A stretch of DNA of 22,725 nucleotides, taken from the IMG/VR virus record IMGVR_UViG_3300036985_005253, positions 1-22,725 of that record, one strand, 5' to 3'. The notes below the pieces were generated by a model that searched no databases, was not told the DNA's origin, and saw only the letters and a list, made by a program, of their open reading frames with translations. Each line of letters starts with the position of its first letter. Position 1 is the first letter of the stretch. Shown piece after piece: positions 7,829-10,294 of this stretch. Both the position numbers and the translations under genes were made by a program. This DNA comes from a virus.

Positions 7829-8271
7829 CCCCACCTCGCCCAAAGTTTTTTAGACTCAATCTCAAACCGTTGTTTGTTGCAGTATTTAGTAACTGCTTTT
7901 GATGCTTGCAACCATTCTGTGATTAACATTACGTTCCCTGACATAGTGTAATAACTTTTTTTAATCATTGACCACTCGTCAAAGTATTGTGGGTTGTGAA
8001 GCTTCCAGTTATCTAAATCCTTTTTATGATATCTCACCACGCCTTTGTCGCTTAGATGCTCTGGCACTTGCCAATACTTGCCAAAATTTACAATATTAGC
8101 AAGCTTTTGTGTCGTTAATCCTAAGTAAACAGCAGAAGCAGGGCGAGTTAAATACGCTCTGTTTTTTTGTATCTGATAAAGTTCCGCCCTTTTTTTGACT
8201 AACGCTTCTTTATTCTTTTCTCTATAAGCTCGGTCAACGTAGCTTTTAATTTCTTTTGCTGTTGCGTTCAT
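7825..8271 (-). CDS. Probable DNA-binding protein, MerR/excisionase-like HTH
   Basis: A 148-aa basic protein. Residues about 43-90 (RPASAVYLGLTTQKLANIVN, then VVRYHKKDLDNWK) have the pattern of helix-turn-helix family 17 / excisionase-type winged helices: a 'V-YLGLTxxxL' helix-turn-helix followed by a strand with VVRYxKxDLDxW. A basic helical N-terminus precedes it, and a helical C-terminal part of about 55 residues follows. It likely binds DNA as a regulator or accessory factor. Start and stop overlap the neighbours as ATGA. The HTH call is fairly good; the role is unknown. Confidence 0.7.
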   Translation of the reverse strand: MNATAKEIKSYVDRAYREKNKEALVKKRAELYQIQKNRAYLTRPASAVYLGLTTQKLANIVNFGKYWQVPEHLSDKGVVRYHKKDLDNWKLHNPQYFDEWSMIKKSYYTMSGNVMLITEWLQASKAVTKYCNKQRFEIESKKLWARWG

Positions 8272-9005
8272 ATTAATTCCTTTTGTATTTGTAAAAACTC
8301 ATAAGCATGTGCGCTATTATGAGACTCAATTCTGTCCGCTATCACTGCAGCTCGTTGTGATGACGTTGCAGGTTTGTACATTCCAAATCTAGCTAACGAC
8401 CCACAATTAACAGCCGCATTAGTGCTATCAGCCAATGATAATGGCAACTTAGTAAATACTTTAGTGCTTAACATCCGTAAGCCATGTAATTTGCATTTCG
8501 GCTTACCATCTTCATCACATATAACTTTCATAGCATCGTTCATGCGAACCCACCATGATTTAGTGCCGGGTGTCTTATAGTCACCAGAACTGCCTAGTGC
8601 TACTATTTCAAAATTAGTGGCTAAATAATCAAGGTACTCAAAAGACTCGTGCATGTGCCAAACAGGTACTCCTTTTGCTCTTGTGCCTGATCTTACCCAT
8701 TTGTGTACCCATGCAAGATTATCTTGCTCAGTGCCGTCAATAATATCTGGTATCAAGGCCCAATCAAATCCTGGGTGTCGTCTTAATGATTCTGCCCATT
8801 TTAAATAAGCATCAAAATCAATCTTACCTTTCCCAGACTTCCAGTGGCTAAACGCTCCATTATCCAAACAAAATGTCTGACAAAATTCTAAAACAGCGCC
8901 TAGATCGTCTTGTCTACCAAATGGAATAAGCGCATGACGACCAACCAGGAACCTAGCCACGTCTTGCCTTGAGCCACCAATTGGTGTGCCATGATAATGG
9001 ATCAT
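8268..9005 (-). CDS. tRNA-guanine transglycosylase-like protein (DpdA-type TIM barrel)
   Basis: A 245-aa protein whose motifs fit the queuine tRNA-ribosyltransferase (TGT) superfamily, in particular short phage members related to DpdA, which put 7-deazaguanine bases into DNA. Visible in order: CLDNGAFSHW (46-55), FDWALIPDIIDG (80-91), GVPVWHMHE (112-120), IVALGSSGDYKT (134-145), LHGLRMLS (173-180) and LPLSLADSTNAAVNCG (187-202). The last resembles the SxDS strand carrying the catalytic Asp in TGT enzymes. These blocks end barrel strands at about the expected spacing. The cysteine cluster that binds zinc in classical tRNA TGT is not seen. No queuosine or preQ0 synthesis gene is present in the window, so the substrate base would have to come from the host or from elsewhere in the genome. 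Whether it acts on DNA or tRNA is undecided. Confidence 0.65.
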   Translation of the reverse strand: MIHYHGTPIGGSRQDVARFLVGRHALIPFGRQDDLGAVLEFCQTFCLDNGAFSHWKSGKGKIDFDAYLKWAESLRRHPGFDWALIPDIIDGTEQDNLAWVHKWVRSGTRAKGVPVWHMHESFEYLDYLATNFEIVALGSSGDYKTPGTKSWWVRMNDAMKVICDEDGKPKCKLHGLRMLSTKVFTKLPLSLADSTNAAVNCGSLARFGMYKPATSSQRAAVIADRIESHNSAHAYEFLQIQKELI

Positions 9006-9268
9006 AAATTTAAACTTGCCATGTCTAATGACTTTGAATAAATGGCATCAATAATCCATCTGTTGCAAGGATCATGACGTTTATTAAATGGTGCGCATAT
9101 AGCACCATCGATAACAGCAACCATGCACTCAACGTCAAGATCACCTTTTGCCATTTCTTTTAAACGATTAGATAAAATTGTTAAGATCTCTTTTGGATCT
9201 TCTTGAAAATTGGCAACAATATTTTCCATTATTGCCACACCTATGGCTTCGTGTAGTTCTTCGTTCAT
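9002..9268 (-). CDS. Hypothetical protein (88 aa)
   Basis: An 88-aa acidic, mainly helical protein of unknown function. It has three Cys and one His (VECM, AICAPFNKRHDPCNRW), not spaced like a known zinc site. AGGTGA lies upstream of the ATG. Its start shares one base with the upstream stop (TAATG), and its stop overlaps the TGT-like gene's start (ATGA). Confidence 0.75.
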   Translation of the reverse strand: MNEELHEAIGVAIMENIVANFQEDPKEILTILSNRLKEMAKGDLDVECMVAVIDGAICAPFNKRHDPCNRWIIDAIYSKSLDMASLNL

Positions 9269-9513
9269 TATCTTTCACCTGTTGGCAAATTATATTCCTG
9301 GCTTGCCCCAACTTTGTAAGATGTTACAGAAGTAACACTGTGCACTGGGTTGCCGGTTGAATAAATAAAGCTTAATGCTGAAGTAAAAATAACAATAATT
9401 ATAACGGCGGCTACTTTTCCGATTTTTACAGCAATATTATATTCCTTCCAATTCTCTTCAAGATTTTCAAGATCTGCTGTTAAATAAGTCTTGTCTGCGT
9501 AATCTGTTTTCAT
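9268..9513 (-). CDS. Small single-pass membrane protein (81 aa)
   Basis: First gene of the leftward operon. The acidic N-terminus (MKTDYADKTYLTADLENLEE) is followed by one transmembrane segment at about residues 34-53 (VAAVIIIVIFTSALSFIYS) and a polar tail. By the positive-inside rule, Lys near the start of the TM segment suggests the N-terminus lies in the cytoplasm. The ATG at 9513 is preferred over a TTG at 9630 because the extra 39 residues are rich in Arg, Cys, Tyr and Trp and lie over a candidate promoter. The ribosome binding site is weak (GGA). It could be a holin-like or inner-membrane accessory protein, but it lies ten genes away from the lysin, so this is only a possibility. Confidence 0.65.
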   Translation of the reverse strand: MKTDYADKTYLTADLENLEENWKEYNIAVKIGKVAAVIIIVIFTSALSFIYSTGNPVHSVTSVTSYKVGASQEYNLPTGER

Positions 9514-9590
9514 AATACAAATCCAATAAATGCGCCAACACCGGTCGACGCGATAAAAGTTTGCTTTGGTAAAGCAGGTTGCTCTGCGGT

Positions 9591-9600
9591 AGTACGTACT
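9591..9600. promoter_or_regulatory. Palindrome AGTACGTACT in the operon leader
   Basis: A perfect 10-bp palindrome, 78 bases upstream of the first leftward gene and 15 bases downstream of a consensus -35 hexamer (TTGACA, minus strand, 9621-9616). It overlaps the place where a -10 box would sit, where only a poor match (TACGTA) is found. It may be an operator of a regulated promoter. Confidence 0.3.
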
Positions 9601-9641
9601 TTTAAAGCTAATGACTGTCAAGTTACCCAATCATTACTTTT

Positions 9642-9676
9642 AAAAACCCTCAGCGACTAGGTTAAATCGCCAAGGG
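9642..9676 (-). terminator. Intrinsic terminator, leftward
   Basis: On the minus strand, CCCTTGGCGA (9676-9667) pairs over all ten positions, two of them G-U, with TCGCTGAGGG (9656-9647). The loop is 10 bases and TTTTT follows (9646-9642). It ends the structured region before the leftward operon. Confidence 0.7.
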
Positions 9677-9808
9677 GGTAGAGCAGTGCGGCTGTTATTT
9701 AATCAACCCCCGCCTTTTTTCGGTCCGAGGTGGCACCGGCCGCACTTTTTACTGATACATCCAGAAAATCTGTCCAGGAAAACTGGAGGTATCACTAAAA
9801 ATAGTGGT

Positions 9809-9833
9809 AAAAAAGCCCCGCTTTGCACGGGGT
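9809..9833 (-). terminator. Intrinsic terminator, leftward
   Basis: On the minus strand, ACCCCG (9833-9828) pairs with CGGGGC (9820-9815) around the loop TGCAAAG, followed by TTTTTT (9814-9809). This is textbook form with a GC-rich stem. It lies just downstream of the promoter at 9872-9901 and would also stop readthrough from ssb. Confidence 0.85.
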
Positions 9834-9871
9834 ATAGAGTGCGGCCTTCGGGCCTAGGAGAAATCGGGTGA

Positions 9872-9901
9872 AGTATATAATCTATTATGTTACTCTGTCA
9901 A
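9872..9901 (-). promoter_or_regulatory. Sigma70-type promoter, leftward
   Basis: The -35 box is TTGACA (9901-9896), a perfect consensus. The spacer is 18 bases. The -10 box is TATACT (9877-9872), matching 5 of 6; TATATA (9879-9874), with a 16-base spacer, overlaps it. The predicted start is near 9865. It begins 10 bases after the ssb stop codon and faces no gene for about 350 bases. Confidence 0.7.
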
Positions 9902-9910
9902 TACATTATA

Positions 9911-10294
9911 TTAAAACGGTATATCATCTTCGTAGTCATCGTTTGTTTGAACTGGAGCTGGAGCTGGAACTGGAGCCTCGTTACGTTTACCAACTAAATC
10001 AATAATGTTGGCATTCAATTCTAAGCTGGTCTTAGTAGTGCCGTCATTGGCTTTATATTCATTTTGGCTAAGCTCACCGGAAACAAAAACCTGCTGGCCT
10101 TTTTTCAAGTAATCTTTCAAAGAGCCTTCAGCACGTTTGCCAAATAAGGCGACACGTACCCATAAGGTTTGTTGCTTATCACCATACCCAATTTTGTTGG
10201 CAACCGTTACATTTAAAATGGTTAAGCCACTTGGTGTGTGCTTAACCTCAGCATCTCTGCCGATAGTGCCGGTAAAACTAAATACATTACTCAT
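9911..10294 (-). CDS. ssb: Single-stranded DNA-binding protein
   Basis: A 127-aa SSB. The N-terminal OB fold covers residues about 1-100, starting MSNVFSFTGTIGRDAEVKHT and including LWVRVALFGKRAE and KKGQQVFVSGELS, both typical of bacterial-type SSB. A Pro/Ala linker follows, then the acidic tip DDYEDDIPF, which binds partner proteins in this family. It covers single-stranded DNA during phage replication and recombination. It is the last gene of the bet-exonuclease-ssb set and overlaps the exonuclease stop by 4 bases (ATGA). It is somewhat shorter than the E. coli protein because the linker is short. Confidence 0.95.
   Translation of the reverse strand: MSNVFSFTGTIGRDAEVKHTPSGLTILNVTVANKIGYGDKQQTLWVRVALFGKRAEGSLKDYLKKGQQVFVSGELSQNEYKANDGTTKTSLELNANIIDLVGKRNEAPVPAPAPVQTNDDYEDDIPF

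Follow-up and report, generated by a model that had tools for sequence, protein, structure and literature searches.

The window analyzed here is a stretch of 22,725 nucleotides, positions 1 to 22,725 of the IMG/VR virus record IMGVR_UViG_3300036985_005253, which carries RecE, RecT-like, SSB, primase/helicase, and terminase genes. Between the end of ssb and a leftward operon of roughly ten small ORFs (9513 to 6094) lies an interval that a first-pass annotation described as a noncoding cassette of promoter, hairpins, and two terminators, differing in GC content from its AT-rich surroundings. The features of this region, read leftward, are as follows.

9911-10294: ssb (phrog_44), ending immediately upstream of the interval
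9872..9901, minus strand: sigma-70-type promoter, TTGACA, 18 nt, TATACT, with 11 of 12 consensus matches
9839..9854, minus strand: leader hairpin GGCC-CGAA-GGCC, continuing into GGCCGCAC
9809..9832, minus strand: terminator-like hairpin T1, CCCCGTGCAAAGCGGGG plus CTTTTTT (hairpin arms 9832-9816)
9746..9801, minus strand: hairpin Pa, with UUUUUA/UAAAAA, an internal loop, an 11-bp stem, and the conserved loop UUUCCURGACAG
9739..9745, minus strand: 5′ arm of helix P1, GTGCGGC (partner 9686-9692)
9721..9738, minus strand: hairpin P2, CGGU-GCCACCUCGG-ACCG
9726..9731, minus strand: 5′ arm of the pseudoknot, within the P2 loop (partner 9707-9712)
9713..9720, minus strand: A-rich linker AAAAAAGG, from P2 to the pseudoknot 3′ arm
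9707..9712, minus strand: 3′ arm of the pseudoknot, CGGGGG (partner 9726-9731)
9686..9692, minus strand: 3′ arm of P1, GCCGCAC (partner 9739-9745)
9642..9676, minus strand: terminator-like hairpin T2, loop UUUAACCUAG inside the stem-loop, plus U tract
9604..9640, minus strand: further stem past T2, AAAG.AATGA / TCATT..CTTT, by reading of the sequence
9268..9513, minus strand: first gene of the downstream operon (ATG at 9513), an 81-aa small single-TM-like protein

The described layout held up. The promoter was placed right after ssb, as it proves to be, and the site at 9901-9872 on the minus strand ranks at the top of 11 promoter-like sites in a 2.5-kb region (shuffle mean 6.5 at nine or more matches). 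It is also the only site in the whole window with at least 11 of 12 matches; because Markov sequences of window size give 0 to 3 such sites, the promoter by itself is only moderately significant. Counting from a transcription start that would lie near 9865, the first terminator, expected about 57 bases on, is the hairpin at 9832-9816 with its CTTTTTT tract (≈57 nt), and the second, expected at about 225 bases, is the hairpin at 9676-9647 followed by TTTTT, which ends ≈223 nt from the start. Seven terminator-like sites were found against 2.3 expected. Hairpins are dense between the two, and the 223-nt RNA (9864-9642, minus strand) folds with a predicted −84.3 kcal/mol compared with −63.6 ± 4.2 among shuffled sequences (0 of 200; z −5.0). 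GC content is 0.498 in the interval, 0.400 in the window, and 0.36-0.39 in the flanks, with 3.9% of 223-nt segments equally GC-rich. The interval holds no convincing ORF, those present being short (41 aa on the minus strand and 61 aa on the plus strand).

By eye, the 81-aa product of the first operon gene resembles those of the first genes after the RNA in four related loci (L040, L045, L099, and L014); peptide patterns found no relatives of this protein. Counterparts of the stem at 9604..9640 were seen in L045 and L014. Farther along the operon, 8268-9005 on the minus strand encodes a queuine tRNA-ribosyltransferase-like protein (phrog_887, 2.7e-62) that possibly serves 7-deazaguanine DNA or tRNA modification.

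Relatives of the element

Homologues were sought with DNA patterns and covariance models, and by our own count, with overlaps removed, the element is present in 73 distinct IMG/VR contigs, the window included. An exact 20-mer from the interval led to five further viral contigs, of which one has it twice, and searches with looser patterns and with the conserved loop of the hairpin contributed L040, L099, and L157. Covariance model R1, made from six sequences, recovered untrained copies near ssb genes in L002 (60.9 bits), L014, L013, and L041, and a core model (R2) gave good scores to L005, L012, and L014 and picked up three further records. A variant pattern derived from L013 matched in 60 contigs. 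The loose core pattern also yielded about thirty chance matches without joint P1, P2, and pseudoknot pairing; a few true copies fail the strict P1 test only, having a 3′ arm that is farther off or mismatched. All relatives are uncultivated phage sequences, nearly always with a single copy per phage record, and the full 5′ extent varies among clades.

Outside this set, blastn against cultured phages and plasmids gave no real match. The exact core pattern occurred 17 times in GTDB genomes, never with the remaining core and in coding-like sequence, and we attribute these matches to chance. Scanning genomes with R2, 369 from one class and 300 from one order, gave no match, which is weak evidence because only a small number of candidates went through scoring, and an IUPAC pattern matched four times in 398 genomes, with no excess over a reversed-pattern control. 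Rfam 15 gave no match to the window at the gathering threshold, and a permissive scan of 9400-10000 returned sub-threshold matches only, none on the minus strand. Among the relatives, Rfam found only tRNAs, an int-alpA RNA lying outside the element, and miRNA matches below threshold. No such motif was found among the titles and abstracts of the literature searched.

Fold of the RNA and its covariation

The core common to all 73 contigs consists of helix P1 around hairpin P2, whose loop pairs past the A-rich linker to form an H-type pseudoknot. Covarying base pairs among relatives, which had been named as the check on a structured RNA, are plentiful. In alignment A4, a hand-padded set of six window-like sequences whose four helices comprise 34 pairs, pairing holds in 97.1% of cells and 14 of the 34 pairs have changes on both sides. 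Its covariation score of 0.478 compares with 0.182 ± 0.031 in shuffled alignments (0 of 500), and sliding the partners gives no more than 0.10; the shuffle counts overstate independence because the arms were positioned by hand with N padding and kindred rows have changes in common. RNAalifold recovered Pa, P1, and P2 from A4 unaided. In Pa, 98% of cells are paired, five of the 17 pairs are changed on both sides, and the loop is nearly invariant among the six sequences. A second alignment, A5, restricted to the core (13 sequences, 17 pairs), has both-side changes in 11 pairs, including four of six in the pseudoknot helix and three of four in P2, where every cell is paired (100%), and a near-invariant A tract in the linker.

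P1 keeps its complementarity even where the arms are outright different, as in L242 (GATTGAGTATC/GATACTCAATC) and L270 (GATTGGTTGCC/GGCAACCAATC), and by our reading of the table its arms pair in 20 of 21 non-redundant sequences, the exception being L002. P1 and the pseudoknot show so many unrelated kinds of base pair that chance is untenable as an explanation. G-U cells outnumber A-C cells by 13:2 and 14:0, and the transcribed strand is therefore the minus strand of the window. Together, covariation, pseudoknot, G-U asymmetry, promoter, and terminators strongly support the interval as a conserved structured RNA, read leftward.

Several further contacts can be drawn in the window. The sequence GGCCGCAC (9839-9846) is an 8-nt perfect complement of GTGCGGCC (9738-9745, one base more than the P1 5′ arm), and in the fold predicted for the window these two pair in place of P1. 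This alternative pairing, possibly a switch, reaches such strength in the window alone and not in the relatives. CUAG-like tetranucleotides in the Pa loop (9765-9782) and the T2 loop (9657-9667) are mutually complementary, and a kissing contact between the two loops is possible; the T2 loop differs in some clades without the Pa loop. We rejected, as a general feature, a conserved antiterminator pairing of the pseudoknot 3′ arm with T2, as only sequences of the GGGGG type have it.

Position in phage operons and candidate roles

The most constant feature of the surroundings is a gene directly after the core. At 65 of 67 sites (34:2 when non-redundant) the next ORF shares the core's strand, usually 85-300 nt away, and in the window the core sits 120-180 nt past the promoter at 9901-9872. 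A small membrane protein gene follows in the window's clade; elsewhere the downstream genes encode C5-MTase, ParB-MTase, PhoH, Mom, HNH, and GIY-YIG proteins. In L228-L287, near-identical leaders precede different cargo genes, as if marking an insertion hot spot. A terminator-like hairpin stands within 140 nt upstream of the core at 31 of 48 distinct sites, compared with 7.8% of control positions. Downstream terminators occur at 11 of the 48, which does not clearly exceed the 15% seen in controls, and mostly in the clades of the window and of L013. A T2-related hairpin 3′ of the core is found in the window's clade (L002, L040, L048, L099, and L157), and T2 is absent from most relatives outside it. 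The order promoter, terminator, core, gene is not universal, because L046 and L256 deviate: one core of L046 begins a noncoding stretch and the other follows tRNA-Gly, and in L256 the element comes after a coding gene with no terminator.

The diversity of the downstream genes counts against a metabolite switch. A ligand-sensing riboswitch, or a self-cleaving ribozyme, built on the H-type pseudoknot would suit a location right before genes and a topology of pseudoknot and A-rich linker resembling that of preQ1-I, and the window's operon has its queuine tRNA-ribosyltransferase-like gene; the downstream genes share no pathway, however, and no Rfam riboswitch or ribozyme matches, which leaves this reading decidedly improbable.

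In two loci (L231 and L260), the element has the primase region on one side and genes for terminase, portal, head morphogenesis, and major head/capsid proteins on the other, and in L242 it lies between the terminase small and large subunits. This adjacency to terminase genes would fit a packaging RNA or a DNA packaging site, but the window's element is ≈11 kb from terminase and in the opposite orientation, and covariation and G-U asymmetry indicate RNA rather than a DNA site. We consider a packaging role very improbable.

In L013, L099, L222, and L242 the core comes after noncoding leaders of 350-700 nt that contain extra folded modules, and in L046 (5866-6750) two cores flank a noncoding stretch with tRNA-Gly (TCC). 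An RNA akin to the large ornate phage RNAs GOLLD and ROOL, with a structural or other job and the core as its 3′-most domain, would account for such leaders and for the tRNA between two cores, GOLLD and ROOL being found near tRNAs (PMC12286853). This reading is nonetheless unlikely: Rfam shows no match to either RNA, the window version is just ≈220 nt, and no tRNA is nearby at most loci.

Two other sequences recur in these leaders. The motif TGACA-N(2-8)-GGAAAGAC plus a short stem appears in the leaders of L046, L242, L228, L231, and L270 (for example, TGACAGCTTGGAAAGACAAGC), and in 32 of 71 element-bearing loci compared with one of 185 other loci; these leaders may carry it as a further module. 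An extra 5′ domain, GGCCGG...GATAGACCT(T)AGCAG, is common to long leaders of otherwise different phages (L216 at ~1270-1350, L199 at ~1240-1330, and L045 upstream of 11181) and has no Rfam match.

The first-pass annotation had proposed either a dedicated small RNA gene or an attenuated leader. We favor the leader because the core sits before a same-strand gene, the genes differ, and T2 is missing in most outside relatives; the family-wide constants are the fold and the gene after it, not the terminator, which argues for a cis leader element over a free small RNA. The stand-alone gene is only partly supported. It would be a trans-acting RNA of ≈223 nt (or 57 nt) with its own promoter, ended at T2 or T1, and its Pa loop, UUUCCURGACAG, could be a seed against Shine-Dalgarno-like AGGAAA sequences. 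The window's interval does have its own promoter and two terminators, the Pa loop is nearly invariant in six sequences, and most phage records have one copy; T2, a good terminator, could simply end a stable small RNA, and a terminated RNA of ≈223 nt is possible in the window and its clade. Yet most of the distant relatives have no T2, while nearly all keep a gene on the same strand; L002, L013, and the 60-contig clade lack Pa or its loop; and a search of the window for complements of the Pa loop gave one match, itself, and no second one beyond chance. We therefore hold the small RNA gene to be a minority possibility.

A cis-acting leader function in general is probable. Our account as a whole, in which the interval encodes a pseudoknotted RNA module, conserved among these phages, that occupies a phage operon's 5′ leader and most likely works in cis, we put at about even. 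In the scheme that we draw from it, polymerase starting near 9865 would pass T1, or stop there in part, the pseudoknot would then form in the nascent RNA, and the folded RNA would help polymerase on through T2 into the downstream operon; the ≈57 and ≈223 nt RNAs would consequently be attenuated products. Because T1 comes first, any effect of the core would be limited to T2 and what lies past it. The position at the head of a transcription unit, with terminators before and sometimes after, suggests elongation control of the kind known from HK022 put, although antitermination specifically is a tentative assignment. More tentative still is a new class of RNA-only processive antitermination, in which a nascent-leader pseudoknot makes host polymerase resist terminators in diverse uncultured phages. 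If true, a pseudoknot antiterminator would stand at the head of early operons in certain lineages and, elsewhere, ahead of the packaging/head operon.

Comparison with known systems

We regard the element as a new RNA family, absent from Rfam 15, within a known broad kind, phage leader RNAs; its architecture is unmatched in the catalogue, and its mode of action is what we infer. Several known RNAs were considered and rejected. On the plus strand, an apparent resemblance to a T-box or a tRNA has no Rfam or ARAGORN support, and HDV, pistol, and twister, compared by topology, have no Rfam support. A ToxI-type antitoxin RNA, which consists of tandem pseudoknot repeats beside a toxN gene and for which PMC3475682 gives a phage pseudo-ToxI precedent, is at odds with the single element in nearly every record and with the lack of an Rfam match.

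GOLLD and ROOL RNAs lie near tRNAs (PMC12286853), and like them the element is phage-encoded, richly folded, and multi-domain, with tRNAs sometimes near. Among the loci scanned, however, a tRNA is adjacent only in L046 and ≈1.1 kb off in L270, and the element has no sequence or covariance-model match to these RNAs, is much smaller in the window, and is strongly tied to a downstream same-strand gene. For a small RNA gene, the hallmark of its own promoter and terminator is present in the window, but T2 is not kept in distant relatives. In the preQ1-I riboswitch, the loop of a short hairpin pairs past an A-rich linker, as the P2 loop does here; the element's pseudoknot differs in being larger and enclosed in P1, with downstream genes that have no common pathway. 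We rejected a preQ1 riboswitch, as there is no Rfam preQ1 match and other loci lead to unrelated genes.

The lambda late leader (pR′ to tR′) depends on protein Q and a DNA site. It shares with the element the order of promoter, short terminated leader RNA, and operon, and elements of other clades likewise head packaging/head genes; what is conserved in the element, unlike in lambda, is an RNA fold. Few RNA-only control elements are known in phages, and put is the best-known RNA that alters polymerase by itself. A covariation-supported family in more than 70 phage contigs, heading early or late operons, is a short, testable candidate for such control.

HK022 put acts in cis from early leaders with no protein, putR lying ≈270 nt from the start, and its RNA of about 70 nt with two stem-loops suppresses termination in cis via the zinc-binding domain of the RNA polymerase β′ subunit (PMC9378689). 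The element's core of P1, P2, and pseudoknot is not an arrangement of two stem-loops, and put contains a minor-groove triplex, no comparable pseudoknot having been reported for it. Antitermination has been shown for put and is only inferred for the element, whose mode of action would be akin to that of put or of a late-leader antitermination site, with an unrelated fold. In leader position the two agree, the element having its promoter at 9901-9872 and a same-strand gene next at nearly all sites: both are structured, noncoding phage leader RNAs, the element probably acting in cis as put does, past an early promoter and before an operon with terminators.
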